A stretch of 63,990 bases of DNA from an uncultured Roseburia sp. (GTDB lineage: Bacteria > Bacillota > Clostridia > Lachnospirales > Lachnospiraceae), in NCBI GenBank assembly GCA_934309475.1, contig CAKRDK010000012.1, forward strand, positions 1 through 63,990, read 5' to 3'. This document shows, piece by piece, positions 40,699 to 54,960 of this stretch (within the stretch, counting starts at the first letter, position 1; every line of letters starts with the position of its first letter). The notes beneath the pieces were generated by a model. The model saw only the letters and a list, made by a program, of their open reading frames with translations. It was not told the DNA's origin and searched no databases. Position numbers and translations under genes: made by a program.

Positions 40699-40766
40699 AG
40701 CGCATTTGTTTTTTTACTGTTGTCGGGAACGCCCGGATGGTAAAAAGCAGATGCGTCTTGTTTTTA
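40699..40766 (+). terminator. Long terminator-type hairpin after dapL
   Basis: The arms GCGCATTTG... (from 40700) and ...CAGATGCGT (to about 40756) pair through a long stem with several G-U pairs, ending in TCGGG/CCCGG around AACG. TTGTTTTT follows. Its last T-run is also the 5' base of repeat copy 1. Confidence 0.7.
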
Positions 40767-40800
40767 TGTAATAGGAAACTTCGTTCCTATTACACAAAAA
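40761..40800 (+). repeat. Terminator-linked hairpin repeat, copy 1
   Basis: TTTTTATGTAATAGGAA, loop ACTTCG, then TTCCTATTACA and AAAAA. The tail GCTCCGC is related to, but more diverged than, the tails of copies 2-4. Between it and the kinase start lies a GC-rich imperfect hairpin (CTCCGC/GCGGAG, 40802-40828), but no gene. Confidence 0.8.
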
Positions 40801-40935
40801 GCTCCGCAAGGATGCGCACCTCGCGGAGAAGAATTTAATGCTTCGCATACCGCTCGGGCGCGCAAGTGTGCGGCAGGCGCACATTTTATTCTGATGAGAA
40901 TCTGTAAGCAGGATTTTTTAAAAGAGGGAGGAAAA

Positions 40936-41775
40936 ATGGAGAATCATAACAGGCAGAAAAAAATAGCGGTTATCAATGATATGTCCGGATTTGGAAAATG
41001 TTCTGTCACGGTGGAACTTCCGATTATTTCTGCGATGGGGATACAGTGTTGTCCGCTTCCTACCGCGATTTTTTCCAATCATACCGGGTATGAAAGCTTT
41101 TTTTGCGAGGATTACACGGATAAGATGATGGCTTATCTGAAGGAGTGGGAGAAGCTTGGACTCTGCTTTGACGGAATCTGTACGGGTTTTCTTGCGTCTG
41201 TCCGCCAGATTGAGGTGGTAGAGTATTTTTTGCAATCCTTTAAAAGTAAAAAAACAATCGTAGTTATAGACCCGGTAATGGGGGATTATGGGGAGCTATA
41301 TCCAACCTATGAGCGTGAGACCGGAGAAGAATTAAAAAAACTGCTTCCTTATGCGGATATCGTAACGCCGAATCTGACCGAGGCGTGTGTGCTGACCGGT
41401 ACAAAATATCGGGAGCAGATGACAGAACAGGAAATGATTCTGCTGGCGGAGAAACTCTGTGAGATGGGGCCGGATAAAGTAGCGGTTACAGGAATTGACC
41501 GCGGCAAAAAGATTGCAAATCTCTGCTACGAAAGAGGAGGAACACCGGAGTTTATCGAGGTGGAAAAGATTGGAATTTCACGTGCGGGAACCGGGGATAT
41601 GTTTTGCTCCATGTTAGCGGCAGATGCAGTCAATGGCGTGGAATTCCAGGACTCTGTTGCGCATACATCCGAGTTTATCAGAACCTGTATCAGGAGAACA
41701 ACAGAACTTGGCATACCGGAGCAGGATGGAGTCTGTTTCGAGGAATTTTTATATTTACTCAGATATCAGAAATAA
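40936..41775 (+). CDS. Pyridoxal/pyridoxamine kinase (PfkB-like superfamily)
   Basis: The 279-residue protein phosphorylates vitamin B6 forms to the 5'-phosphate. Motifs include INDMSGFGKCSVTVELPI, LPTAIFSNHTGY, VVIDPVMGDYGELY, TPNLTEACVLTG and the catalytic SRAGTGDMF. ATG 40936 follows GAGGGAGG; an upstream in-frame ATG at 40894 has no such site. The PLP product would serve enzymes such as DapL encoded upstream. Confidence 0.9.
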   Translation: MENHNRQKKIAVINDMSGFGKCSVTVELPIISAMGIQCCPLPTAIFSNHTGYESFFCEDYTDKMMAYLKEWEKLGLCFDGICTGFLASVRQIEVVEYFLQSFKSKKTIVVIDPVMGDYGELYPTYERETGEELKKLLPYADIVTPNLTEACVLTGTKYREQMTEQEMILLAEKLCEMGPDKVAVTGIDRGKKIANLCYERGGTPEFIEVEKIGISRAGTGDMFCSMLAADAVNGVEFQDSVAHTSEFIRTCIRRTTELGIPEQDGVCFEEFLYLLRYQK

Positions 41776-41781
41776 AACTAC

Positions 41782-41809
41782 TTGACAAGCCAATAAAATA
41801 TTGTATAAT
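41782..41809 (+). promoter_or_regulatory. Promoter of the ArsP_2-type transporter/Fur operon
   Basis: Consensus TTGACA (41782-41787) and TATAAT (41804-41809) are 16 bases apart, giving a very strong promoter that would need repression. Confidence 0.85.
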
Positions 41810-41814
41810 CAAAA

Positions 41815-41829
41815 TGCAAATGATTTGCA
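41815..41829. promoter_or_regulatory. Fur-family 7-1-7 operator
   Basis: TGCAAAT-G-ATTTGCA is a perfect 7-1-7 inverted repeat, the shape bound by Fur-family dimers, starting 5 bases after the -10. Further TGCAAAT and TTGCA half-sites occur at about 41843-41866. The bases differ from Bacillus Fur, Zur and PerR boxes. The Fur-family gene in the same operon is the likely binder. Confidence 0.75.
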
Positions 41830-41884
41830 AATACAAACAAGTTGCAAATGAAAATGAGTTGCATTTTAGATGGGAGTAAGTAAA

Positions 41885-42739
41885 ATGATGGATATTTTAT
41901 TGGATACAGTGATAGATAGTGTGAAGTTAATTCCGTTTTTATTTTTGACATATCTTGTGATGGAGGCATTAGAGCACAGCACAGGTAAGAAAGTGCAGGG
42001 AGTAATCCGCAATGCGGGAAAGGTGGGACCCCTGTGGGGAGGACTGCTTGGAATTGTGCCGCAGTGCGGTTTTTCAGCGGCGGCTGCAAGCCTGTATGCG
42101 GGACGTGTGATAACAGTGGGAACGCTGGTGGCAATTTTTCTGTCCACGTCGGATGAGATGCTTCCTATTTTGGTGTCGGAATCAGTTTCGTTTGGCACGA
42201 TTGGAAGAATCCTTGCAACCAAAGTAGTGATTGCAATTATATCTGGTTTTGTAGTTGAGTTTATATATGTTACATTACTGAAAAAGAAGGAAAAAGACAT
42301 GGACATTCATGTTGTATGCGAGGAAGAGCACTGCAGTTGTGAGGATGGAATTTTAAAATCAGCAGTGAAGCATACGCTGACCATTTTTTTCTATATTTTT
42401 CTCATTTCGCTGCTTTTAAATATTGTAATTGGCATGGTGGGAGAAGACAATCTTTCCATGTTGTTTTCGAATGTACCGGTCGTAGGAGAGCTGATTGCAG
42501 CTTTGATTGGCTTGATACCAAACTGTGCCTCTTCGGTTGTCATCACACAGCTTTACATTGACGGTGTGATTCATTCCGGAGCAATGATGGCGGGACTTTT
42601 GGTAAATGCAGGTGTTGGACTTTTGATTCTTTACCGTCTGAACCGCAACTGGAAAGAAAATGCAGCCATCATTTCTGTTCTATATGGGCTTGGCGTTTTT
42701 TGGGGAATTGTGATAGAATTAATGGGAATTGTATTTTAG
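41885..42739 (+). CDS. ArsP_2-type (putative manganese) membrane transporter
   Basis: The 284-residue protein has eight to nine hydrophobic segments arranged as two related halves, each with a proline-cysteine loop: GGLLGIVPQCGFSAAAASLYAGR and IALIGLIPNCASSVVITQLY (marks split here for position only). A cytoplasmic His/Cys cluster (HVVCEEEHCSC) lies between them. This is the ArsP_2/putative manganese transporter family. It is co-transcribed with a Fur-family regulator behind a Fur-type box, so metal-responsive transport is likely; the ion is not determined. ATG 41885 follows GGGAG. Confidence 0.8.
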   Translation: MMDILLDTVIDSVKLIPFLFLTYLVMEALEHSTGKKVQGVIRNAGKVGPLWGGLLGIVPQCGFSAAAASLYAGRVITVGTLVAIFLSTSDEMLPILVSESVSFGTIGRILATKVVIAIISGFVVEFIYVTLLKKKEKDMDIHVVCEEEHCSCEDGILKSAVKHTLTIFFYIFLISLLLNIVIGMVGEDNLSMLFSNVPVVGELIAALIGLIPNCASSVVITQLYIDGVIHSGAMMAGLLVNAGVGLLILYRLNRNWKENAAIISVLYGLGVFWGIVIELMGIVF

Positions 42740-42754
42740 AAAAGAGGAATTTCC

Positions 42755-43165
42755 ATGGCAGGTAATAGTTATACAACGGCGAGCAGAACGAAAATATTAG
42801 ATTTTTTAAAGGCAAATTGTGATAGAACGGTAAATGTAAATGATATTCAGCAATATTTGATTGAATGTGAGCATGAAGTTAATATTACAACGATTTACCG
42901 TTATCTGGATAAACTTTCTCATGAGGGAACCGTGATGAAATATGTGGCAGAGAAGGGGAATCAGGCAGTTTACCAGTATGTGGAATTTGGGCATCACTGC
43001 GAGGAGCATCTACACTTACAGTGTGTGAAGTGTGGTGCAATCGTGCATTTGGAGTGCGATTTCATGAAGGAGATTGCGGAGCATGTAGAAAAGGATCACG
43101 GGTTTCAGATTCAGTGTAAGAATTCCATAATTTACGGACTATGTCAGAAATGTCGTACCGAATAG
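42755..43165 (+). CDS. Fur-family metal-responsive repressor
   Basis: The 136-residue protein has the winged helix (TASRTKILDFLK ... VNITTIYRYLDKLSHEG) and a C-terminal dimer domain. Metal ligands in GHHCEEHLHLQC and two CxxC pairs (CVKC, CQKC) for structural zinc are visible. It follows the transporter by 15 bases and probably represses the operon through the 7-1-7 box. Whether it reads Zn, Mn or Fe cannot be told. Confidence 0.9.
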   Translation: MAGNSYTTASRTKILDFLKANCDRTVNVNDIQQYLIECEHEVNITTIYRYLDKLSHEGTVMKYVAEKGNQAVYQYVEFGHHCEEHLHLQCVKCGAIVHLECDFMKEIAEHVEKDHGFQIQCKNSIIYGLCQKCRTE

Positions 43166-43181
43166 AATAGATAAAGTAGAG

Positions 43182-43208
43182 GTGTACCTGGAGACGGGTA
43201 CACTTTTT
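43182..43208 (+). terminator. Terminator of the transporter/Fur operon
   Basis: GTGTACC pairs with GGTACAC around an 8-base loop, followed by TTTTT, which also forms the base of repeat copy 2. Confidence 0.85.
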
Positions 43209-43243
43209 ATGTAATAGAAAATTTCGTTCCTATTACATAAAAA
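43204..43243 (+). repeat. Terminator-linked hairpin repeat, copy 2
   Basis: TTTTTATGTAATAGAAA, loop ATTTCG, then TTCCTATTACATAAAAA: 17 paired positions with one mismatch. The tail TGCTTCATAAGAATCTTTTT follows. An ATG within this tail (43243) is in frame with the peptidase gene but belongs to the repeat. Confidence 0.85.
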
Positions 43244-43317
43244 TGCTTCATAAGAATCTTTTTAATATCTTTGCACGAAAAAACATATATTTTTTCAAAG
43301 AGAATCTGGAGTTTTTT

Positions 43318-44352
43318 GTGAAAAGAGGGACAAAATTAAAAATTGCAATCGGTTTGGAATTGCTTGCCTTTGCAATTATTTTTTTAAGTGGACAGAAAGG
43401 CAGTCTGCTGCGAAGCAAGGCAGTGACTGTGACGTCCGATAATTTTATTAGGTGGGTGGATTTTGATGTGTCTTACGAGGCATTAGAGCGGGCATATGAA
43501 CTTGATGTGGCAGCACATGATACCGAGTGCCCGCTAAACTGGATTGAGTTGTTAGCCTATGCTGCGACCATGGAGGGCGGCAGTTTTTCGAATAAGAGCA
43601 TTACCGATATCGAGGAAATTGCACAGAAATTACAAAGTGGTGAAACAACAGTAAAGCAGCTGAAGAAGCAGTATCGATATTACAATTACTATTTAGAGGC
43701 TTATTCGGCGGTTTTAGGAGCTTATGTCGGTGAATATGAGATTGAGGAAAAGGGGACGGATGGAACGGTTTCTTTTGTAAAAAAATATGGGTTAAAGGCG
43801 TTTTCGCCGATTGCAAAAGGATTTCCGTACAGTGATTATGATGATTTTGGAGTGTCGCGAAGTTTCGGATATAAAAGAGAGCATTTAGGACATGATATGA
43901 TGGGGCAGATTGGTACACCAATCATAGCCGTAGAATCCGGCACCGTGGAAGCACTCGGCTGGAACCGTTATGGCGGCTGGAGAATCGGCATACGGAGCAA
44001 GGACACAAAGCGTTATTACTATTATGCACATCTAAGGCAGAATTATCCGTATGCAGAAGGCCTAGAGGAGGGAAGCGAGGTGACTGCCGGGGATGTGATT
44101 GGATATATGGGACATACCGGATACAGTGACACGGAAAATGTCAATAATATTGATACGACGCACCTGCATTTTGGGATACAATTAATCTTTGACGAGTCGC
44201 AGAAGGACGGAAATGGGGAAATCTGGATTAACTGCTACCAGTTGGCACAGTTTCTGTACCAGAACCAGTGTGAAACGGAAAAAATTGGGGATACGAAAGA
44301 GTGGAAGCGTGTCTATCAGATAAAAGAAACAGAGCGCGATGACCGCACATAA
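43318..44352 (+). CDS. Membrane-anchored M23 (LytM-type) peptidase
   Basis: The 344-residue protein has an N-terminal membrane anchor (KIAIGLELLAFAIIFL), a helical linker region (about 50-165) and a C-terminal LytM domain. Zinc motifs are HLGHDMMGQIGTPI (HxxxD) and THLHFGIQL (HxH). It should cleave cell-wall peptide bridges outside the membrane, or be a sporulation/division factor. I prefer GTG 43318 (GGAG six bases upstream) over ATG 43243, which lies inside a dispersed repeat. Confidence 0.85.
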   Translation: MKRGTKLKIAIGLELLAFAIIFLSGQKGSLLRSKAVTVTSDNFIRWVDFDVSYEALERAYELDVAAHDTECPLNWIELLAYAATMEGGSFSNKSITDIEEIAQKLQSGETTVKQLKKQYRYYNYYLEAYSAVLGAYVGEYEIEEKGTDGTVSFVKKYGLKAFSPIAKGFPYSDYDDFGVSRSFGYKREHLGHDMMGQIGTPIIAVESGTVEALGWNRYGGWRIGIRSKDTKRYYYYAHLRQNYPYAEGLEEGSEVTAGDVIGYMGHTGYSDTENVNNIDTTHLHFGIQLIFDESQKDGNGEIWINCYQLAQFLYQNQCETEKIGDTKEWKRVYQIKETERDDRT

Positions 44353-44391
44353 AAACAGGCTGACCGGTGTTTTACCAGTCAGCCTGAAAAA
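44351..44391 (-). terminator. Terminator of typA
   Basis: CAGGCTGAC...CGG and CC...GTCAGCCTG form a stem; on the minus strand it is followed by five T. It lies between two convergent genes and may act weakly in both directions. Confidence 0.85.
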
Positions 44392-44392
44392 T

Positions 44393-46222
44393 TTATTTTT
44401 TGAAGTTTGCACGTTTACGAAGGGTTGGGTCTAAGATTCTTTTACGGATACGAAGACTTTCCGGTGTAACCTCTAACAACTCATCGACATCGATGAAGTC
44501 AAGTGCCTGCTCTAAGCTTAATCTCTTAGGCGGAACTAAAGTTAATGCTTCATCCGCAGAAGAAGAACGTGTGTTTGTTAAATGCTTTTTCTTGCAGACA
44601 TTTAATTCAACATCTTCTGCACGGGAAGAAGAACCGATAACCATACCGGCATATACTTTTTCACCAGGTCCGATGAATAAAGTTCCACGATCCTGTGCGG
44701 AGAAAAGTCCGTAAGTTACGGATTCACCTGTCTCGAAAGCAATCAGGGAGCCAAGTTTACGGTAGGAGATATCACCCTTGTATGGCTCATAGCCGTTGAA
44801 AATAGTATTGATGATACCATTTCCTTTTGTATCTGTTAAAAAGTCACCACGGTAACCGATTAAGCCACGGGAAGGAATGCTGAACTCTAAACGTGTGTAA
44901 CCGCCTGCGATAGGGCGCATGTTCTGCAGTTCACCTTTACGCTGGCTTAATTTATCAATGACAGCACCTGTAAATTCGTCCGGAACATCGACATAAGCTA
45001 ATTCCATAGGCTCTAACAGTTTGCCGTTTTCGTCTTTGTGATAAAGAACTTCTGCCTTACTTACTGCAAATTCATAACCTTCACGGCGCATGTTTTCAAT
45101 CAGTACGGATAAATGTAATTCACCACGACCGGAAACTTTTAAGCTGTCCGGGCTGTCTGTCTCTTCGACACGGAGAGAGACGTCTGTGTTTAACTCGCGG
45201 AACAATCTGTCTCTGATGTGACGTGATGTGACGAATTTTCCTTCCTGACCTGCTAATGGACTGTCATTTACAATGAAGTTCATAGAAAGGGTAGGCTCTG
45301 AAATTTTCTGGAAAGGAATGGCAACCGGATTCTCAGGAGCACAGATGGTATCACCGATGTGGATGTCTGCAATACCGGAAATAGCAACAATAGAACCAGG
45401 TTTTGCCTCGGTAACATCTACTTTATTTAATCCTTCGAACTCGTAAAGTTTGCTGATGCGGACTTTTTTCATTTTGTCAGGTTCATGGTGGTTGACAACA
45501 ACGGCTTCCTGATTGATTTTTAAGGTTCCGTTGTCCACTTTACCGATACCGATACGACCTACATATTCATTATAGTCGATGGTACTGATGAGAACCTGTG
45601 TGTTGGCATCCGGGTCACCTTCCGGAGCAGGGATATAATTAAGAATCGTTTCAAAAAGAGGAACCATGTCTTTCTTTTCATCATTTAAGTCTTTCATTGC
45701 GTAACCGTCACGCGCAGATGCAAAAATAAACGGACAATCTAACTGCTCATCGGAAGCATCTAAGTCCATGAATAACTCTAAAACTTCGTCGATAACTTCG
45801 TCAGGACGGGCTTCCGGACGGTCAATTTTGTTGATGCAGACAATAACAGGAAGATTTAATTCCAAAGCTTTCATCAAAACGAATTTGGTCTGAGGCATAG
45901 CACCTTCGAATGCGTCAACAACAAGGATAACACCGTTTACCATTTTTAAAACTCGCTCAACTTCACCACCGAAATCGGCATGACCTGGTGTGTCGATAAT
46001 ATTGATTTTGACACCGTTGTAGGTGATGGCTGTGTTTTTGGAAAGAATGGTGATACCACGTTCTCTCTCGATATCGTTTGAGTCCATGACACGCTCCTGA
46101 ACTTCCTGATTGGCACGGAATGTACCGCTCTGTTTCAAAAGCTGGTCGACTAATGTTGTTTTACCATGGTCAACGTGTGCAATGATGGCAATGTTACGGA
46201 CGTCTTCACGTTTCATTTTCAT
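44393..46222 (-). CDS. typA: Ribosome-associated GTPase TypA/BipA
   Basis: The 609-residue translational GTPase has AHVDHGKTTLVDQLL (G1), RERGITI (G2), DTPGHADF (G3), NKIDRPEAR (G4), then EF-G-like domains and the TypA-specific C-terminus (SADEALTLVPPKRLSLEQALDFID). It acts in ribosome assembly and stress adaptation. The start 46222 is taken with AGGTAAGG upstream; ATG 46216 is two codons in. Confidence 0.97.
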   Translation of the reverse strand: MKMKREDVRNIAIIAHVDHGKTTLVDQLLKQSGTFRANQEVQERVMDSNDIERERGITILSKNTAITYNGVKINIIDTPGHADFGGEVERVLKMVNGVILVVDAFEGAMPQTKFVLMKALELNLPVIVCINKIDRPEARPDEVIDEVLELFMDLDASDEQLDCPFIFASARDGYAMKDLNDEKKDMVPLFETILNYIPAPEGDPDANTQVLISTIDYNEYVGRIGIGKVDNGTLKINQEAVVVNHHEPDKMKKVRISKLYEFEGLNKVDVTEAKPGSIVAISGIADIHIGDTICAPENPVAIPFQKISEPTLSMNFIVNDSPLAGQEGKFVTSRHIRDRLFRELNTDVSLRVEETDSPDSLKVSGRGELHLSVLIENMRREGYEFAVSKAEVLYHKDENGKLLEPMELAYVDVPDEFTGAVIDKLSQRKGELQNMRPIAGGYTRLEFSIPSRGLIGYRGDFLTDTKGNGIINTIFNGYEPYKGDISYRKLGSLIAFETGESVTYGLFSAQDRGTLFIGPGEKVYAGMVIGSSSRAEDVELNVCKKKHLTNTRSSSADEALTLVPPKRLSLEQALDFIDVDELLEVTPESLRIRKRILDPTLRKRANFKK

Positions 46223-46459
46223 AAATTTACCTTACCTTTCATAATAACAAACGTAGTTATAATATACTATATCGTTCTAAACATTAATTGTTTCCTAAGA
46301 TTATCAAACTATAATATTCTATCACATTTTTATGAGAACGCAAGTATTTATTGGATTTTCGGGAGTTTGCACGATTTTTTGTAAAAAATAAATGTCGAAT
46401 TATGAATGTTTTATTATGTTTTCTTATCGACACGTTACCCGAATTTTCTAGGGAGGGAA

Positions 46460-46559
46460 ATGGTAAAAATAATTTGTTGCAGGTTATCCGGAGGATGAAC
46501 AAAAAAGAAAAACAGCAAGGCGGATGACAAAGGAAGGGAGAAGAATTCATGGCAGATAA
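46460..46559 (+). other. Chain of three tiny overlapping ORFs before the SSB-like gene
   Basis: ATG 46460 (after GGGAGGG) opens a 12-codon frame ending in TGA at 46498. ATG 46495 opens a 10-codon frame overlapping it as ATGA, and ATG 46524 does the same and ends at 46559, past the SSB-like start at 46549. The rest of 46223-46548 is AT-rich with no other gene seen. Whether these are translated is unknown. Confidence 0.3.
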
Positions 46560-47178
46560 AATTTTTGAAAACAACCAGGTATCTATTGTAGGAGAAATCG
46601 TTTCCGATTTCCGATTTAGTCACGAGGTATACGGAGAGGGGTTCTACCTCGTCGACATTTCAGTAAACAGACTGAGCAACATTGTGGATTACATACCGGT
46701 TATGATCTCGGAACGATTGATTGATGTGGAGGAAAATTACATAGGGCAGTATCTCTATGTAACAGGACAGTTTCGCTCGTTTAACCGACACGAGGAGAAA
46801 AAAAACCGGCTGGTCTTATCTGTTTTTGCAAGGGAAGTCGAATTTATGGACGGACCGGAGGAAGATATCAAGAGTAACCAGATCTTTTTAGACGGCTACA
46901 TCTGCAAGGAGCCGATTTATCGTAAGACCCCGCTTGGAAGGGAAATTGCAGATTTGTTGATTGCGGTCAACCGTTCTTATGGAAAATCAGACTACATTCC
47001 ATGTATCTGTTGGGGGCGAAATGCAAGATTTGCGTCCAACTTTGACGTGGGCGGACATGTGCAGGTCTGGGGCAGAATCCAGAGCAGGGAGTATGTGAAA
47101 AAAATCAGTGAAGAAGAGACGGAAAAGCGCATTGCGTATGAGGTTTCGGTGAGTAAAGTTGAGTTTTTAGAAGAGTAG
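46549..47178 (+). CDS. SSB-like protein with two OB-type domains
   Basis: The 209-residue protein seems to contain two OB-fold halves. The C-terminal half (about 105-205) carries single-stranded DNA-binding protein features: GREIADLLIAVNRSYGKSDYIPCICWGRNA and GGHVQVWGRIQSREYVKK. The N-terminal half (VSIVGEIVSDFRFSHE... GQYLYVTGQFRSFN) has the same strand pattern in weaker form. It lacks the acidic C-terminal tip of replicative SSB. A nucleic-acid binding role is likely; the partner is unknown. Confidence 0.75.
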   Translation: MADKIFENNQVSIVGEIVSDFRFSHEVYGEGFYLVDISVNRLSNIVDYIPVMISERLIDVEENYIGQYLYVTGQFRSFNRHEEKKNRLVLSVFAREVEFMDGPEEDIKSNQIFLDGYICKEPIYRKTPLGREIADLLIAVNRSYGKSDYIPCICWGRNARFASNFDVGGHVQVWGRIQSREYVKKISEEETEKRIAYEVSVSKVEFLEE

Positions 47179-47272
47179 GATTTGTGGTATAGTTGCAAAT
47201 TAATCTGGATTGTGGTATTTTAAAAAAATCTGGAATAGATGAAGAAATGGATTCTAAGAGGATGGAAAAAGT

Positions 47273-47749
47273 ATGATTCAGATTTATTATGGAGATGGAC
47301 GGGGGAAGTCTACAGCCGCACTTGGCAATGCAATACATGCAGCAAGTGAGGGGAAAAATATTGTGATGGTTCAGTTCCTGAAGGGGAAAAGGAACGAAGA
47401 AGAAGAGAACTTTTTAAAAAGGTTAGAACCGGAGATTAAGATTTTCCGTTTCGAGAAGACGGAAGAGTCTTACGAAGAATTGAGCGAGGAACAGAAGTTA
47501 GAAGCAGCATTGAATATCAAAAACGGCCTCAATTATGCAAGAAAAGTGCTGGTGACGGGAGAATGTGACCTGCTTGTGCTAGACGAGATATTAGGTGTTA
47601 TCGACAACGGTCTCGTGACAAAAGAAGATATCAAAGCTGTCATAGATGCAAAATCAGAGGGCGTGGATTTAGTCATGACCGGCCGTGTCCTCGACGATGA
47701 TTTGCGTGAATATGCAGATGAAATCTATAAAATTGTATCGGAAAAATAA
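47273..47749 (+). CDS. CobO/BtuR-like cob(I)yrinic acid a,c-diamide adenosyltransferase
   Basis: The 158-residue P-loop protein has YYGDGRGKSTAALGNAIHA at the N-terminus, VQFLKGKRNEEEENFL, and LLVLDEILGVIDNGLV. These are CobO features. It would transfer adenosyl from ATP to corrinoids. It is slightly shorter than enterobacterial BtuR (about 195), and no cobalamin gene is nearby, so the exact substrate is open. Confidence 0.82.
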   Translation: MIQIYYGDGRGKSTAALGNAIHAASEGKNIVMVQFLKGKRNEEEENFLKRLEPEIKIFRFEKTEESYEELSEEQKLEAALNIKNGLNYARKVLVTGECDLLVLDEILGVIDNGLVTKEDIKAVIDAKSEGVDLVMTGRVLDDDLREYADEIYKIVSEK

Positions 47750-47754
47750 AACGA

Positions 47755-47795
47755 AATCATCGTGTCACACGAAAATGTGATGCGGTGATTTTTTT
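47755..47795 (+). terminator. Terminator after the CobO-like gene
   Basis: AATCATCGTGTCACA pairs with TGTGATGCGGTGATT with a few G-U pairs or mismatches, followed by a run of seven T. Confidence 0.85.
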
Positions 47796-47804
47796 AGATT
47801 TTGA

Positions 47805-48133
47805 AAATTTGATTCAGGGGACAAAAATGTAGTTTAAAAATTAGTTACTGACAACTTGTGCAAAGACAAGATTTAGTTTGTGACTTTGGGGGAACATTAG
47901 AAAATCTTAGTATGCCTCCAGATATCCAGTGATGTTCTGCCATGGACGGCAGAACAAGGCTTCACGAGCCACGGATGGCTCGTTGAATGCCGTTCACGTT
48001 ACTCCGAACTAATCTACATCAGGCATACTTAGACTTTTCTTATGTTCACCCATCGGAACAAAATAGACTTGACTTTGCACAAGTTGTCAGTAAGGAAACT
48101 GTGAACTACATTTTTGCCCCCTGAATCAAATTT
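47805..48133. other. ~330-nt rod-like palindromic element
   Basis: The ends form a 30-bp inverted repeat: 47805-47834 (AAATTTGATTCAGGGG...) with 48104-48133, 29 of 30 matching. Further in, 47845-47870 pairs with 48068-48093 (25 of 26) and 47888-47917 pairs with 48021-48051 with a few mismatches. At the centre are two small hairpins, GTTCTGC/GCAGAAC (47934-47955) and GAGCCA/TGGCTC (47966-47981). There is no gene within. It lies between the CobO-like terminator and the fbp promoter. Unrelated by eye in sequence to the element at 20793. Confidence 0.75.
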
Positions 48134-48173
48134 GAAAGTCCACAATGTATACAAAAAGATACACACAGCTTGA

Positions 48174-48202
48174 TTGTTGGAACGATGAAGTTGTGATAAG
48201 AT
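48174..48202 (+). promoter_or_regulatory. Promoter of fbp
   Basis: TTGTTG (48174-48179) and TAAGAT (48197-48202) are 17 bases apart. Confidence 0.5.
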
Positions 48203-48260
48203 GAAACAAGCGTGGGGATGTACCAGAAATGGTGGAATAACAGATTGAGGAAGGTGTTAT

Positions 48261-50216
48261 ATGGAACAAGTGGATTTACGTTATCTGAAAAGCTTAGCGA
48301 GACAGTATCCGACCGTTGCGGCAGCAGCGACTGAAATTATTAACCTGCAGGCGATTCTTAGCCTGCCAAAGGGAACCGAGCATTTCATTACGGATATTCA
48401 TGGGGAGTATGAACAGTTTCAGCATGTATTAAAAAATGGTTCGGGAGCAATCAAGCGCAAAATTGAGGACGAGTTTGGAAATGCAATGAGCGCAAGTGAG
48501 AAAAAAGTCATTGCAACGTTGATTTATTATCCGGAACAGAAGATGGAGCAGGTCTTAAAGACAGAGGAGAACATGGAGGACTGGTATAAGGTGACGTTAT
48601 ACCGTCTGATTCGCATCTGTAAATGTGCTTCTTCGAAATACACGCGTTCAAAAGTGCGTAAAGCGCTGCCGAAGGATTTTGCATATGTGATTGAGGAACT
48701 TCTGACGGGACGACAGGAGGAGTCTGACCAGGAAGCGTATTATAATGAGATTATCAATACGGTTATCCGCACCGGAAGGGCGGGAGAACTTGTCATTGCA
48801 TTTTGCAATCTGATTCGGAGATTAGTCGTAGACCACCTGCATGTCGTTGGGGATATTTTTGACAGGGGGCCATATCCAAACCTTGTCATGGATACGCTGA
48901 TGGCGCATCATTCCGTTGATATTCAGTGGGGAAACCACGATATTTACTGGATGGGAGCGGCAGCGGGCAATCCGGCATGTATCTGCAATGTCATTCGTAT
49001 TTCGGCAAAATATGGAAATCTAAAATTATTAGAGGACGGCTATGGAATCAATTTAGTTCCGCTGGCGCGGTTTGCGATGAGCCGTTATGCGAAAGATGCC
49101 TGCACCTGTTTTAAATTAGATTACCGTGAAGACGAGTATGATGTCCGGGATACCCTTTTAGATGAAAAAATGCATAAGGCAATCGCAATTATGCAGTTTA
49201 AACTGGAGGGGCAGCTTATCAAAAAGCATCCGGAATACCAGATGGAAGACCGTCTTTTGCTTGATAAAATTGATATGGAAAAGGGAACGGTGCTGGTGGA
49301 GGGAAAAGAATATCCACTGAAAGATACCGAATTTCCGACGATAGACTGGGAGAAGCCATATGAACTTTCGGCAGATGAGGCGGAGGTGATGGAGCGCCTG
49401 ACAATGGCGTTTGTCAACTGTGAAAAATTGCAGAAACACATCCGTTTTCTCTACACACAGGGAAGCTTGTATAAAGTATACAATGGAAATCTTTTGTATC
49501 ACGGCTGTATGCCGATGAATGAGGACGGAACATTTACAAAAGTAAATGTATATGGAAAAGAGTACGCAGGGAAAGAACTCTACGATGTTTTGGAAAGCTA
49601 TGCCAGAAAAGGTTATTATGCCATTGACCCGGAAGAGAAGAGGAAGGGGCAGGACATCCTTTGGTTCATCTGGGAGAACCAGAATTCGCCTGTGTTTGGA
49701 AAAGCGAAAATGACAACCTTTGAGCGGTATTTTATTGCCGATAAGGCGACACACGAGGAGCCGAAGAACCCATACTACAGACTTTTGGAAAAAGAAGAAG
49801 TTGTCAACCGGATTCTCGAAGAGTTTGGACTTGATACCGCAGAGGCGCACATTATCAACGGTCATATTCCAATCGAGGCAAAGCGCGGGGAATCGCCGGT
49901 GAAATGTAATGGAAAGCTGTTAATCATCGATGGCGGATTTTCCAAGGCATATCAGCCAAAGACCGGAATCGCGGGATACACGTTGATTTTTAATTCTTAT
50001 GGGCTTGTGTTAGCGGCACACGAACCATTTGAATCCGTGGAAAAAGCAATTCAGGACGGAAGCGATATAGTTTCACATACAATATTAGTTGAGCATGTAG
50101 TGAAGCGGAAGACAGTGGCAGATACGGATATTGGAAAAGAACTGCAGGAGATGATAAAGGATTTAGAAGCACTTCTTTTAGCGTATCGCGAGGGTGTTAT
50201 TGTGGAAAAAGCATAA
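48261..50216 (+). CDS. fbp: Fructose-1,6-bisphosphatase class III
   Basis: The 651-residue protein is the Firmicute-type FBPase, unrelated to class I, with a calcineurin-like metal site: FITDIHGEYEQF, VGDIFDRGPYPNLVMD and QWGNHDIYWMG. It removes the 1-phosphate of fructose 1,6-bisphosphate for gluconeogenesis, needed when cells grow on uronates, which enter at pyruvate and glyceraldehyde 3-phosphate. Length matches the family. Cytoplasmic, single gene. Confidence 0.95.
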   Translation: MEQVDLRYLKSLARQYPTVAAAATEIINLQAILSLPKGTEHFITDIHGEYEQFQHVLKNGSGAIKRKIEDEFGNAMSASEKKVIATLIYYPEQKMEQVLKTEENMEDWYKVTLYRLIRICKCASSKYTRSKVRKALPKDFAYVIEELLTGRQEESDQEAYYNEIINTVIRTGRAGELVIAFCNLIRRLVVDHLHVVGDIFDRGPYPNLVMDTLMAHHSVDIQWGNHDIYWMGAAAGNPACICNVIRISAKYGNLKLLEDGYGINLVPLARFAMSRYAKDACTCFKLDYREDEYDVRDTLLDEKMHKAIAIMQFKLEGQLIKKHPEYQMEDRLLLDKIDMEKGTVLVEGKEYPLKDTEFPTIDWEKPYELSADEAEVMERLTMAFVNCEKLQKHIRFLYTQGSLYKVYNGNLLYHGCMPMNEDGTFTKVNVYGKEYAGKELYDVLESYARKGYYAIDPEEKRKGQDILWFIWENQNSPVFGKAKMTTFERYFIADKATHEEPKNPYYRLLEKEEVVNRILEEFGLDTAEAHIINGHIPIEAKRGESPVKCNGKLLIIDGGFSKAYQPKTGIAGYTLIFNSYGLVLAAHEPFESVEKAIQDGSDIVSHTILVEHVVKRKTVADTDIGKELQEMIKDLEALLLAYREGVIVEKA

Positions 50217-50286
50217 ACAAATCCTTCTCCTGAGAAAATTATTTTTCTCTACAGGATTAGGGTGTTAAACTTTTCGCCGTGGAGTG

Positions 50287-50315
50287 TTGACATCACGGGA
50301 AGCAGGTGCTATAGT
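50287..50315 (+). promoter_or_regulatory. Promoter of the lysine riboswitch-dapA transcript
   Basis: TTGACA (50287-50292) and TATAGT (50310-50315), spacer 17. Confidence 0.85.
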
Positions 50316-50351
50316 AATTAAGTACATGTTTTTTCATAAAATGAATTAAGT

Positions 50352-50526
50352 TAGATAGAGGTTGCGTAATTCAAGAGTAACTTATTGGATGTGGCGGACA
50401 CAGTAGAAGATAAGAGAAAGGGGAGAACGCCGAAAGAGAGTGGGATCGTAACTGCTTTCTTGGGCATAAGGTTAAGAGCTTTATGACTGTCATCTTTTTC
50501 CTTGGAAACAGATGGGGCGCTATCAA
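50352..50526 (+). ncRNA. Lysine riboswitch (L box)
   Basis: The conserved L-box blocks are visible in order: GATAGAGGTTGCG, TTCAAGAGTAA, GAAAGGGGAGAACGCCGAAAG, and TGGGGCGCTATC closing P1 with GATAG/CTATC (50354-50358 with 50520-50524). It senses lysine and should favour the terminator that follows (50576-50598) when lysine is high, shutting off dapA-dapB. Confidence 0.92.
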
Positions 50527-50575
50527 ATTCAAAAAAATAATTCGCAAAGGATTATCGCTTTGTATTTGAATATTT

Positions 50576-50598
50576 AGCCGGCTCATCGAGCCGGCTTT
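50576..50598 (+). terminator. Terminator of the lysine riboswitch
   Basis: AGCCGGCTC and GAGCCGGCT form a 9-bp stem around ATC, followed by TTTCATT. Confidence 0.8.
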
Positions 50599-50602
50599 CA
50601 TT

Positions 50603-50633
50603 GTGTAAATAGGAAATTTCGTTCCTATTACAC
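50603..50633 (+). repeat. Terminator-linked hairpin repeat, copy 3
   Basis: GTGTAAATAGGAA, loop ATTTCG, TTCCTATTACAC: the stem has one bulged A. The tail GCTTCGCGGGAATCTATTTTT follows, with the same order as copies 2 and 4 (final T-run broken by one A). It lies between the riboswitch terminator and dapA. Confidence 0.8.
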
Positions 50634-50715
50634 GAAAACGCTTCGCGGGAATCTATTTTTGTTTCAGAGAACTCTACTGACTTAGCGGAAAAGTCAAATT
50701 TAGGAGGAATTTAAA

Positions 50716-51606
50716 ATGGCAATTTTTAAAGGTGCCGGTGTTGCAATTGTAACGCCAATGAAAAACAACGAGGACGTGAACTATGATAAGTTAGAAGAAC
50801 TGATTGAGTTTCAGATTGCGGAAGGAACAGACTGTATTATTATTGCAGGAACGACAGGAGAGAGTTCTACTCTGACTATGGAGGAACACAGAGAGGTGAT
50901 TGAGGCTGCAGTCCGTTTCACCAGGCATCGTGTGCCGGTTGTGGCAGGAACGGGTTCAAACTGCACAAGAACAGCCATCCAGCTTTCCAAAGAGGCTGAG
51001 GAGGCTGGTGTGGATGGTCTTTTGATTGTGACACCATATTATAACAAAGCAACACAGACAGGACTGGTTTCCCACTATACACAGATTGCGGAAGCGACCA
51101 AACTTCCGATTATCATGTATAACGTACCAGGAAGAACAGGATGTAATCTGCTGCCTGAGACGGTTGCAACACTGTATCAGAATGTGGAAAATATTGTCGG
51201 CTTAAAAGAAGCAACCGGCAACCTTGCACAGGCATCTAAGACGATGTATCTGACAGATGGAAAGCTGGATTTGTATTCCGGCGAGGACGGATTGGTTGTA
51301 CCACTGATGTCAATCGGCGCTGTAGGTGTTATTTCAGTATGGTCGAATGTTGCGCCGAAAAATGTGCATGATATGTGTATGAGCTATTTTAACGGAGACT
51401 TAGAGAAAGCAATGAAGTTACAGCGCGAGGCACTTCCGTTAGTGGATGCGCTTTTTAGCGAGGTAAATCCGATTCCGGTCAAAAAAGCATTGAACCTGAT
51501 GGGAATGGAAGTCGGACCGGTTCGTTCCCCATTGACGGAGATGTCAGAGGAGAATGCGGCAAAGATGGCACAGATTATGAGAGCGTATGGCTTGAAACTT
51601 GCGTAA
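50716..51606 (+). CDS. dapA: 4-hydroxy-tetrahydrodipicolinate synthase
   Basis: The 296-residue aldolase-fold enzyme condenses pyruvate with aspartate semialdehyde, the first step of lysine/diaminopimelate synthesis. GTTGESSTL, MYNVPGRTGCN with the catalytic tyrosine, and VGLKEATGN with the Schiff-base lysine are present. AGGAGGAATTTAAA precedes ATG. It is controlled by the lysine riboswitch upstream and is followed by dapB. Confidence 0.97.
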   Translation: MAIFKGAGVAIVTPMKNNEDVNYDKLEELIEFQIAEGTDCIIIAGTTGESSTLTMEEHREVIEAAVRFTRHRVPVVAGTGSNCTRTAIQLSKEAEEAGVDGLLIVTPYYNKATQTGLVSHYTQIAEATKLPIIMYNVPGRTGCNLLPETVATLYQNVENIVGLKEATGNLAQASKTMYLTDGKLDLYSGEDGLVVPLMSIGAVGVISVWSNVAPKNVHDMCMSYFNGDLEKAMKLQREALPLVDALFSEVNPIPVKKALNLMGMEVGPVRSPLTEMSEENAAKMAQIMRAYGLKLA

Positions 51607-51689
51607 CAGAAAAGAAAAAGGCAGCGTAGGAACACGACAGCGTTGCCTTTTTAAAGTACGTTAGATGTCGTGTGGAAATGAGGGATACA

Positions 51690-52454
51690 ATGACAAGAGT
51701 AATTATGCATGGATGTAATGGAAAAATGGGACAGGTTATCACCGGAATCTGCAAAGAAGATTCTGAGGTAGAGATTGTAGCAGGAGTCGACGTTTACGAT
51801 GGAATTCAAAATGACTATCCTGTTTTTTCGAATATTTCACTCTGCAATGTAGAGGCAGATGTTATCATCGACTTTTCGAATGCGAAGGCAGTGGACGATT
51901 TGTTAGTATACAGTGAGGAAAAACAGATTCCGGTTGTGTTATGTACGACAGGACTCAGCGAGGAGCAGCTTGCAAAAGTGGAAGAGACTTCCAAAAAAGT
52001 TGCGGTTTTAAAATCTGCAAATATGTCACTCGGTATCAATACCCTGATGGAATTATTAAAATCTGCAACAGCAGTCTTTGCACCGGCAGGATTCGATATT
52101 GAAATCGTGGAAAAACATCACAACCAGAAGCTGGATGCACCGAGCGGAACCGCAATTGCACTTGCAGATTCCATCAATGAAGCTTTAGATGAGAAATACA
52201 CATACAAATACGACCGTAGTCAGGAACGCAAGAAACGTGAGAAGAAAGAAATCGGAATTTCTGCAGTCCGTGGCGGAAATATTGTCGGCGAGCATGAAGT
52301 GATTTTTGCCGGAATGGACGAAGTGATTGAGTTTAAACATACCGCATATTCGAAGGGTGTGTTTGCAAAAGGTGCCGTGGAAGCCGCCAAGTTTTTACAT
52401 GGAAAAACACCGGGACATTACGAGATGAGCGATGTCATCCGCGCAGGAATGTAA
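51690..52454 (+). CDS. dapB: 4-hydroxy-tetrahydrodipicolinate reductase
   Basis: The 254-residue enzyme reduces the DapA product to tetrahydrodipicolinate, the substrate of Dap[12 protein letters not shown] binds NAD(P)H; the catalytic [15 protein letters not shown] and [13 protein letters not shown] follow. ATG 51690 is preceded by GAGGG and gives the standard N-terminus; an in-frame ATG at 51672 is possible. Confidence 0.97.
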
Positions 52455-52467
52455 GCAGGAGAGAGAC

Positions 52468-53295
52468 ATGTTAATCGGAAATCATTTATCGGCATCAAAA
52501 GGGTACGCTGCCATGGGAAAAATGGCACTTAAGTTAGATGCGAATACGTTTGCGTTTTTCACAAGGAATCCGCGAGGTGGAAAAGCGAAAGAAATTGATG
52601 AAAAAGATGTGGAAAACTATCTTGCCATAGCAGAGGAGCATAACTTTGGAAAACTCGTTGCACATGCACCGTACACCATGAATTTATGTGCGGCAAAAGA
52701 GGATGTGCGTAATTTTTCACGGGAAATGATTGCGGACGATTTAAAGAGGATGGAGTACACGCCCGGCAACTATTACAATTTTCATCCGGGTTCCCATGTG
52801 GGACAGGGTGCAGAAGCAGGAATTGAGCTGATTGCGGATGCGCTCAATGAAGTTTTAACGCCAGAGCAGAGTACGATTGTTCTGTTGGAGACCATGGCTG
52901 GAAAGGGAACAGAAGTGGGACGCAGTTTTGAGGAGCTGCGGGCAATCATCGACCGTGTTTCTTTACAGGAAAAAGTCGGTGTCTGCTTTGATACCTGCCA
53001 TGTCTGGGATGGCGGCTACGATATCGTAAACCATCTCGATGAGGTGTTAGACGAATTTGACCGTGTGATAGGGTTAGAGCGTTTGTATGCAGTTCATTTT
53101 AACGATAGCTTAAACGATTGCAATACGCATAAAGACCGCCATGCGAAGATTGGGGAAGGCAAAATCGGAGCGGAGGCATTGCGCCGTGTCGCAACCCATC
53201 CAAAGCTGTCGGGCAGACCATTCATTTTGGAGACGCCAAACGATGAGGAAGGATATGCAAAGGAAATTGCACTCATCCGTTCCTGGACAGAATAA
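52468..53295 (+). CDS. nfo: Endonuclease IV (AP endonuclease)
   Basis: The 275-residue TIM-barrel metalloenzyme cuts DNA 5' to abasic sites in base-excision repair. Metal-site motifs are [56 protein letters not shown] and [12 protein letters not shown] 52468, 13 bases after the dapB stop, follows GGAGAGAG. Probably read through from dapB. Confidence 0.96.
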
Positions 53296-53307
53296 AACGA
53301 AAATATA

Positions 53308-53354
53308 AAACCCACTGACGTGTAACAGGTGTTTCGTCAGTGGGTTTATTTTTT
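53308..53354. terminator. Bidirectional terminator between nfo and asnA
   Basis: AAACCCACTGACG and CGTCAGTGGGTTT form a perfect 13-bp stem, followed by ATTTTTT on the plus strand and by TTTTATATTTT on the minus strand. Confidence 0.92.
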
Positions 53355-53372
53355 AGAAAAATACGATATATG

Positions 53373-54383
53373 TTACAATAACTGAATGCCGTTTTTCTCA
53401 CAAGCTTTTACCATATCTTCCGGCCACAAGGAAGACTGGACTTCACCGATATGTGCCTTGCGCAGGAAGAACATACAGATACGGGACTGGCCGATGCCGC
53501 CGCCGATGGTATAAGGAAGTTCTCCGTTTATGATTGCTTTCTGGAATGGGAGCTCTGCGCGCTCCGGACATCCGGCTTTGTCTAACTGGGAAAGCAGCGC
53601 TTTCTTGTCGACACGGATACCCATGGAAGAGAGCTCTAATGCGATGTCTAAGACCGGGTAGTAAACTAAAATATCAGCATTCAGTTCCCAGTCATCATAG
53701 TCCGGTGCACGTCCATCGTGCGGTTTGCCGGATTCAAGCTTGTCACCGATTTTTAAAATGCAGACAGCACCTTTTGTCTTTGTGATATAGAATTCGCGTT
53801 CCTTTGGTGTATTGTCCGGGAACATATCTTCTAATTCCTGTGTTGTGATAAAAAAGATATCATGAGGCAGGATTTCCTCTATGTAGTCATACTGAATCGC
53901 CATATATTTCTCTGTCTTGCGGAGACATTTGTAAACAGTATTGACGGTATCTTTTAAGGTGTCGAGGTTGCGTTCCTCTTTTTTTATGACCTTTTCCCAA
54001 TCCCACTGATCGACGAAAATAGAATGGACATTGTCCGTTATCTCATCGCGGCGGATGGCATTCATATCGGTATAAATACCTTCACCGTAGGAAAAACCAT
54101 ATTTTTTCAGTGCATAGCGTTTCCATTTGGCAAGAGAATGAACGATTTCAGCCGTTCTGTCCGTCTGTTCCTTAATGTCAAAAGAGACAGGGCGTTCCAC
54201 ACCATTTAAGTTGTCGTTCAATCCGGAAGTAGGATCAACGAAAAGTGGTGCAGAAACACGGGAAAGATTTAAACGTAAAGCCAGAAGATTCTGGAAAAAA
54301 TCCTTTACGGTCTTTATTGCAATTTGTGTATCATGTAGATTCAATTCTGAATGATATTCCTTTGGAATAATTAAGTTCTCCAT
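53373..54383 (-). CDS. asnA: Aspartate-ammonia ligase (asparagine synthetase A)
   Basis: The 336-residue enzyme makes asparagine from aspartate, ammonia and ATP, using a class II aminoacyl-tRNA synthetase-like fold. Typical segments are [57 protein letters not shown] and [14 protein letters not shown]. The start at 54383 (GAGGAG upstream) gives the conserved N-terminus; an earlier in-frame ATG lies upstream of the promoter. Confidence 0.95.
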
Positions 54384-54426
54384 TGAAGTGCTTCTCCTCT
54401 CTTTGCTGTAACCAGTACACCAAATT

Positions 54427-54454
54427 ATTATAGCACAAGGCAAATCATTTTCAA
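54427..54454 (-). promoter_or_regulatory. Promoter of asnA
   Basis: Read leftward, TTGAAA (54454-54449) and TATAAT (54432-54427) are 16 bases apart, 43 bases before the start. Confidence 0.75.
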
Positions 54455-54513
54455 GAAAAGATAACAGATTTCCTGTAAAAATACGTGTATACAAAATACA
54501 CCATAAAAAAGAT

Positions 54514-54541
54514 TTGACAGCAGAAAAAAGAGTGCTATACT
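54514..54541 (+). promoter_or_regulatory. Promoter of the FMN riboswitch-rib transcript
   Basis: TTGACA (54514-54519) and TATACT (54536-54541) are 16 bases apart; transcription would begin just ahead of the riboswitch. Confidence 0.85.
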
Positions 54542-54560
54542 AAAGTGGTAAATGAATAAA

Positions 54561-54667
54561 TTCTTCAGGGCAGGGTGCAATTCCCTACCGGTGGTATAGC
54601 CCACGAGCCGCAAGGCATGATTCGGTGTAACTCCGAAGCCGACAGTAAAGTCTGGATGAAAGAAGAT
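54561..54667 (+). ncRNA. FMN riboswitch (RFN element)
   Basis: The conserved blocks CAGGGCAGGGTGCAATTCCC, CTACCGGTGG, GCCCACGAGCC, GATTCGGTGTAACTCCGAAG and CCGACAGT...AGTCTGGATG are present, closed by TCTTC/GAAGA. It senses FMN and should drive termination at 54748-54779, lowering riboflavin synthesis. Confidence 0.96.
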
Positions 54668-54747
54668 AATTTCGTAAGATAGATTCCCCTCATAGATGAT
54701 AGAATAGAGATAGAATCGATAGGAGAGGAAAGTATTTTCGCAGGATG

Positions 54748-54779
54748 CTCTGAAATGTTATACATTTCAGAGTTTTTTT
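54748..54779 (+). terminator. FMN riboswitch terminator
   Basis: CTCTGAAATG and CATTTCAGAG form a perfect 10-bp stem around TTATA, followed by seven T. Confidence 0.93.
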
Positions 54780-54831
54780 ATGCCATACAGGTTACATGAA
54801 AAAGTCCTCTGCGAGGATGCATGATAATACG

Positions 54832-54861
54832 AAAGCCCCTGGAGAAATCCGGGGGCTTTTT
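54832..54861 (+). terminator. Second terminator-type hairpin in the rib leader
   Basis: AAAGCCCC and GGGGCTTT pair, followed by a T-run shared with repeat copy 4. It comes after the riboswitch terminator and before ribD, so rib transcripts must pass two terminators. Confidence 0.8.
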
Positions 54862-54896
54862 CTGTAATAGGAAAATTCGTTCCTATTACAGAAAAA
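54857..54896 (+). repeat. Terminator-linked hairpin repeat, copy 4
   Basis: TTTTTCTGTAATAGGAA, loop AATTCG, TTCCTATTACAGAAAAA: a perfect 17-bp stem. The tail TGCTTTGCAAGAATCTTTTT follows. The sixth stem pair is C-G here, A-T in copy 2 and G-C in copy 3. Confidence 0.88.
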
Positions 54897-54960
54897 TGCT
54901 TTGCAAGAATCTTTTTCGGAATGCAATATCTGGAGAACATAACTTAGAGGGAGGTTAAGG

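Follow-up and report, generated by a model that had tools for sequence, protein, structure and literature searches.

A Small Dispersed Repeat Behind Transcription Terminators of Lachnospiraceae, With an Arm That Often Matches Its Target

Introduction

A stretch of 63,990 nucleotides (nt) of DNA from an uncultured Roseburia sp. of the Lachnospiraceae (contig CAKRDK010000012.1, positions 1–63,990 of the forward strand, hereafter the window) contains four copies of a hairpin repeat, all on the + strand and each preceded directly on its 5′ side by a terminator-type hairpin and a run of T (T-run), as read by eye. Each of these repeats is probably a copy of a small mobile DNA element, non-autonomous and found in Lachnospiraceae and related Clostridia, a reading to which, taken jointly with the arm-copying mechanism considered below, we assign a probability of roughly 0.64. 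The element stands in one orientation and at a near-constant distance behind terminator-type hairpins, the end hairpins of earlier copies included, and it is dispersed and, in one genome (G010), very young. Its first hairpin (H1) is followed by a run of A (the A-arm), and matches between this arm and the T-run of its own target are more frequent than with permuted arms. At a few loci, comparison with relatives that lack the copy shows that the T-run, variable letter included, is part of the target and the A-arm part of the element.

Position Behind Transcription Terminators

The preliminary description of the window had linked the repeat to terminators in one orientation, and this link proved right and general. 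Two samples of 400 kilobases (kb) contained six core hairpins in contig C1 of Blautia sp. An249 (G002) and five in G367, and all 11 were located by eye directly after terminators in one orientation, while control cores yielded 0 or 1 hairpin each. A set of 85 tail-oriented elements was then considered, drawn from 318 raw hairpin matches on both strands by demanding a tail, sufficient upstream sequence and non-duplication, with tailless copies kept outside the orientation counts. A stem was found immediately before the T-run in 74 of the 85, compared with 239 of 844 same-strand and 166 of 850 opposite-strand control T-runs (a narrower, earlier stem finder gave 60/85 vs. 122/844 and 82/850). The distance from the last paired G or C of the stem to the junction was 7–8 nt in 56/85 and 6–9 nt in 68/85. 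Intrinsic termination ends the RNA about 7–8 nt beyond the terminator stem, and the element thus starts about where the transcript ends; since no gene is damaged there, the position just behind a terminator would be a safe site.

A census covered all 99 exact-core copies in five genomes (23 in G002, 25 in Faecalicatena contorta or G003, 23 in G006, 16 in G010 and 12 in G009), altered cores being outside it; six further genomes hold 1 to 5 copies each. Orientation was given by the tail in 75 copies, by the terminator in 15 and by neither in nine. Under a folding criterion a terminator preceded 66 of the 75 tail-oriented copies (15/15 in G010, 18/19 in G002, 14/17 in G006, 9/10 in G009 and 10/14 in G003).

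Complementarity Between the Arm and its Target

At the variable position of the stem the arm was paired with its target at a frequency of 0.78, vs. 0.45 in permutations (n = 85), and this excess persists within five tail families (permutation p 0.0002, n = 43). The census gave the same picture, as 62 of the 99 arms were complementary at all eight positions, compared with a mean of 35.1 and a maximum of 47 in 5000 within-genome permutations; the p value was below 0.0002 in G002, in G006 and in G003. Matching strings of arm and target include GCG/CGC, GTT/AAC and ATATG/CATAT in G006 and GTATG/CATAC at the locus L070. At the variable position, G-U pairs numbered six against 15.5 expected and A-C mismatches nine against 19.4, so that G-U was not retained above A-C.

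The young copies of G010 allow the arm to be compared within one nearly uniform element, for its 16 copies differ at one body position in 957 compared nt (the comparison ending where a copy is truncated). Eight of them stand at GTG targets, and the arm is CAC in all eight. Among the eight copies at other targets, three carry the exact complement of the target (CATT, CAAA and CAT, in CATTAAAA, CAAAAAAA and CATAAAAA). At one locus, L009, the arm is altered at two adjacent letters in an otherwise unchanged element. Because the T-run is the target's and the A-side matches it even in such near-identical young copies, the covariation seems to stem from copying of the target, or from correction by template switching, and not from selection in RNA. 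The preliminary description had taken covariation as support for a selected RNA structure; the covariation itself is real, as the census shows, and the inference of RNA selection is unsupported, the T-run being target-owned and G-U pairs not favored.

Unoccupied Sites

Relatives of G010 without the copies are available at several loci (the names tuf, ptsH, transpeptidase-like, tRNA cluster, ribD and dapA used here are presumed ones, assigned from the sequence). At ptsH the occupied locus L069 reads CTTTCTTTTTTTAT-element-CTTTGC and its relative L241 reads CTTTCTTTTTTTACTTGC; the target of L069 is ATG against its own CAC arm, and L241 has TTTTTTTA there. No target-site duplication was found in this comparison of L069 with L241, the right junctions of the other loci being too diverged. 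Both relatives at the L031 locus have the T-run followed by GT, and the relative L250 at the transpeptidase-like gene reads TTTTTTTGTG. Relatives also carry two of the three target strings of the altered G010 arms, namely TTTTTTTAT in L328 for the L047 locus and nine T in L326 for the tRNA site. Each site that could be read has the letter now adjoining the element in one relative or more. Since the T-run is present in relatives without the element, it is older than the insertion.

The lysine leader of the window agrees with this picture. Thirty distinct lysine leaders with a riboswitch match were found in relatives, two of them (L165 and L178) with a core hairpin, having other stems, behind the terminator, and 28 without an intact core hairpin, which may still hold remnants. 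By eye, L140, L141, and L172, upstream of dapA and without an intact core hairpin, contain possible decayed remnants of the repeat behind the terminator. In L166, also upstream of dapA, this lysine riboswitch terminator is followed by an insert that has long inverted ends (AGGAACTGTCTAGAAATAACTTTT) and is unrelated to the repeat; we read it as a second type of element using the same safe site.

Proposed Mechanism and Rival Explanations

In our preferred reading the element enters as a single strand, and H1 is then lengthened by pairing of the A-arm with the T-run of the target. Mismatches in the lengthened stem would often be settled in favor of the target, its letters being copied into the arm during or shortly after insertion, and an HUH-like single-strand insertion would suit both the non-inverted ends and the one-sided orientation. 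We tentatively propose that in this way the element could recognize the intrinsic termination point by arm/T-run pairing and rewrite its arm from the target on insertion, each copy keeping a record of its landing site together with a renewed recognition sequence.

Several results weigh against the preferred reading. No mobilizing enzyme linked to the element was found at the Y1 loci of the genomes and flanks checked: Y1 transposases (PF01797) were absent from four of eight genomes, including G002 and G006, which have 23 copies each, and the TAGGAA hairpin core was beside none of five Y1 loci (2–3.3 kb each), two of whose genes (L182, L183) we take to be like ordinary IS200 and IS605 genes. Nine of the 75 tail-oriented census copies fail the terminator criterion, about five of these nine having a stem by eye. 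Taken alone, the census p value is 0.013 in G010 and 0.17 in G009, and in genomes with old subfamilies inheritance may account for some of the pairing. Five of the eight non-GTG copies of G010 retain the default CAC arm, so that copying would not be obligatory. Some relatives read differently at the unoccupied sites, with TTTTTTTGG in L235 at ptsH, TTTTTTTATA (ATA) in L251 at the transpeptidase-like gene, T8 then C in L316 and L317 at the L047 locus and T7ATG in L318 at the tRNA site, and the sites of L009 (tuf), L075, and L100 are too diverged for reading. Finally, H1 loops are inverted relative to each other in tail-oriented copies of G003 (L438/L442 and L443/L458, with ACTGCAT/ATGCAG and ACTGCGT/ACGCAGT), which point to template switching that inverts the hairpin spacer.

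This last process underlies a possible and close rival, which differs from copying on insertion mainly in timing: arms would be mismatched at insertion, which copies nothing, and would be matched later by quasi-palindrome template switching during replication. Imperfect inverted repeats are known sites of template switching, which is a route to multi-base compensatory changes (PMC8794818). Matched and mismatched arms both occur among young and old copies, and H1 loops in both directions in G003 are what spacer inversion predicts. Yet the three changed arms among 16 in G010, set against a single body mismatch, mean that correction would have to be very fast, and no T-side was recognized as altered to suit a default arm, a kind of case that is hard to see. 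The extreme youth of the G010 bodies puts copying on insertion slightly ahead of template switching.

A selected RNA structure, in which T-run/A-run pairing modulates termination, for instance behind riboswitches, would account for the strong covariation at the arm, for the two window copies in riboswitch leaders and for the multi-stem layout common to full elements of several families. It is nevertheless improbable: the junction lies about at the termination point and the arm would therefore be missing from terminated RNA, the target letters are the site's own, G-U pairs are not preferred to A-C mismatches, the intact core hairpin is missing from the 28 lysine leaders of relatives mentioned above (remnants being possible), copies stand behind terminators of unrelated genes, and the L009 arm changed at two adjacent letters. 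The suggestion that pairing of the T-run antagonizes termination likewise found no support, since by the time the A-run is made the polymerase would already have left the T-run behind, and terminated RNA would end before the A-run. The repeat may still act on read-through RNA; an RNA-level regulatory role is not needed to explain the element. Guide sequences of IS200/IS605 choose their target by base pairing, and a comparable scheme, in which the A-arm varies first and each variant picks a matching T-run, fits the complementarity of arm and target and the CAC arms at all eight GTG sites of G010. We consider it unlikely, for five of the 13 default CAC arms in G010 are at ATG, AATG or CGTG sites, and each altered arm occurs once, in an element identical to the others in the rest of its sequence, so that a separate source of arm variation would be required. 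The least credible of the alternatives is a relic or satellite of group IIC introns. The target type is identical: these introns insert directly behind intrinsic terminators and recognize a DNA hairpin with short IBS1 and IBS3 sequences read by pairing (PMC3898094, PMC8919778). The element differs in being about 120–175 nt long and in having no intron RNA domains, for at gathering scores Rfam matched no group II intron in any of 12 loci, and the L031 element had no such match up to E 10; matches to the reverse transcriptase domain RVT_1 were found in five of 11 genomes searched and missing in six, G010 and G009 included, which may be incomplete. A group II intron relic was rejected on these grounds.

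Spread and Anatomy of the Element

The perfect stem was found in at least 120 loci in a scan of species genomes; among the 80 locus titles listed, 77 were of Clostridia and three of other phyla, the latter looking like chance matches. A query of one full element with flanks matched 37 of the 64 genomes in the genus of G002, some of the matches covering flank only. Tandem insertions were also observed and, like the unoccupied sites, speak for mobility. Full elements of several families, about 120–175 nt long, are composed of H1, the A-arm (CANAAAAA), GCTCCG, GGATGCG, middle stems (H2), and a terminator-like end hairpin (H3) with its own T-run. This multi-stem layout is shared between families, and the sequences of H2 and H3 differ. 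H2 is laid out alike in G010, G009 and Blautia, with an outer stem of 9–10 pairs, 10 unpaired bases on the 5′ side and an inner hairpin of 6–7 pairs, and other families fold differently. Five distinct G010 copies were located by the exact end hairpin, and in all of them the next base is C, after which the sequences diverge. A second family, present in other Clostridia, combines this H1 with a different tail (GCTATAATCGC). In G415 and G396, some matches to the G010-type element fall into two parts, with about 45 additional bases separating the hairpin from the tail, which points to a longer variant. A loose tail pattern run on 400 kb was too unspecific.

Carriage by phages or plasmids was considered and rejected, the element being nearly absent from viral contigs. 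The hairpin pattern gave 48 viral loci, none with the GCTCCG tail after the hairpin and one (L275) with T-arm and A-arm at all, and the tail pattern gave seven, one of which (L309) had hairpin and tail; nearly all of these look like chance matches. The G010 element had one partial match in a plasmid collection (Roseburia sp. 831b), and the Blautia element had no match in a phage collection. No known RNA family covers the repeat in Rfam at gathering scores, in the window and in 12 loci.

Copies in the Window

The features of the window are collected in Table 1. Positions and eye reading agree with the four same-strand copies, each after a terminator-type hairpin, that were originally proposed. 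A profile of 83 elements taken from other genomes recovers all four copies (E 2e-15 to 2e-8), and a tail-only profile adds a fifth, decayed one straight after the hairpin that follows the flavin mononucleotide (FMN) aptamer. The window has exactly four occurrences of the string TTCGTTCCTATTACA; when up to three mismatches are allowed the number of matches rises to 10, the mean in 100 shuffles being 2.28, and the strict stem has two matches against none in 100 shuffles. The stem of copy 2 differs once (TAGAAAA) and that of copy 3 has an extra A (TAAATAGG). Next to TG, copies 2, 4 and 3 have the pairs A/T, C/G and G/C, respectively, just as first noticed, and copy 1 has an A-C mismatch. Of the four hairpins that directly precede the copies, a terminator pattern scan matched on the + strand only that of the lysine leader, and the hairpin upstream of copy 1 failed the RNAfold stem criterion.

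Table 1. Repeat copies and preceding hairpins in the window.
Feature	Position	Strand	Parts	Basis
Copy 1, target part	40702–40767	+	Terminator-type hairpin 40702–40755, T-run 40761–40767, of the upstream gene	By eye
Copy 1, H1	40768–40793	+	GTAATAGGAA-ACTTCG-TTCCTATTAC	nhmmer E 2e-15 over 40761–40831
Copy 1, rest (long form)	40794–40918	+	A-arm 40794–40800, GCTCCG tail, middle stems, end hairpin with T-run	Right end (near 40918) set by analogy with G010 copies
Before copy 2	43182–43210	+	Terminator-type hairpin 43182–43203 and T-run	By eye; stem also a pattern match on the - strand
Copy 2	43211–43264	+	H1 43211–43236, A-arm 43237–43243, short tail ending GAATCTTTTT	nhmmer E 2e-8
Before copy 3	50576–50604	+	Hairpin 50576–50596 after lysine aptamer, weak T-run	
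Copy 3	50605–50661	+	H1 50605–50631, A-arm 50632–50638, short tail	nhmmer E 2.5e-10
After FMN aptamer	54747–54783	+	Terminator-type hairpin 54747–54773 and T-run TTTTTTTATG	
Decayed older copy	54784–54830	+	Recognizable part 54792–54822	nhmmer tail model E 6.5e-4; full model E 0.13
Before copy 4	54831–54863	+	Terminator-type hairpin 54831–54856 and T-run	By eye
Copy 4	54864–54917	+	H1 54864–54889, A-arm 54890–54896, short tail ending GAATCTTTTT	nhmmer E 4.2e-10

The tail had been described as weaker in copy 1; copy 1 in fact bears the long tail of the full element, which begins with AAAAAGCTCCGCAAGGATGCGCAC and closes with a hairpin and T-run, and short tails, resembling ATGCTTCGCAAGAATCTTTTT, belong to copies 2–4. 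That two copies lie behind riboswitches holds, as Rfam places a lysine aptamer at 50348–50530 and an FMN aptamer at 54557–54671; the hairpin before copy 4 is not the FMN terminator itself, however, the decayed copy standing between them. We read that hairpin as the end hairpin of the decayed older copy. Copies 3 and 4, in the dapA and ribD leaders, are short forms without the terminator of the full element, which may reflect selection against an added terminator or merely a short subfamily, the latter being possible because copy 2 is also short. The best match to the dapA locus of the window stands at 76%, and the copy counts given above come from other genomes.

Two terminator-type hairpins thus stand in series between the FMN aptamer and ribD (54747–54860), and the one preceding copy 4 is a possible second terminator before ribD, which could reduce expression in either riboswitch state. 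At 43243 the short tail of copy 2 provides an ATG in frame with a downstream peptidase-like open reading frame (ORF), for which a GTG about 75 bases beyond looks the more likely start. Elsewhere in the window, a TwoAYGGAY RNA (Rfam RF01731, 121.9 bits) is located at 47885–48054 on the + strand, upstream of an ORF of 651 amino acids (48261–50216), presumably a class III fructose-1,6-bisphosphatase.

Relation to Known Systems

REP sequences are small, dispersed, palindromic, non-coding and intergenic, they are mobilized by RAYT (TnpA_REP, a Y1 transposase) and they have a conserved GTAG/GGAG tetranucleotide 5′ of the hairpin. The element shares the first group of features and differs in that it is placed by terminators, its arm matches the target and the sequence 5′ of its hairpin is a T-run in 85/85 rather than the tetranucleotide. 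A REP/RAYT system was also rejected as a candidate, no Y1 gene being linked to the element in the five Y1 loci checked. The hairpins near both ends, the one-sided insertion 3′ of a short target and the guide-target pairing are all reminiscent of IS200/IS605, whereas no transposase gene lies within the element and its arm changes with the target. MITEs, RUP and BOX are likewise small, non-autonomous, dispersed repeats, and do not have the strict terminator targeting seen here; unlike those of MITEs, the left end (GTAATAGG) and right end (CTTTGTT) of G010 copies are, by eye, not mutual inverted repeats. IS1272 uses inverted-repeat structures as target without target duplication (PMC5678879), a likeness limited by the fact that IS1272 is a full insertion sequence replacing the inverted repeat, while the terminator is left intact by the element.

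Significance

No description of the element was found in the open-licence literature. Terminator-targeting retroelements and small palindromic repeats are already known kinds, and it is the target-matching arm that is unusual. Gut Clostridia gain a family of elements with a strict terminator target, which bears on the annotation of 3′ ends, tandem terminators and riboswitch leaders. A caution follows for the reading of such structures, as stem covariation, the usual mark of a selected RNA, can arise from DNA copying at a palindrome. Genomes with young copies, such as G010, make arm rewriting testable; should rewriting on insertion prove true, it would represent a novel means of keeping the target recognition of a mobile element matched.

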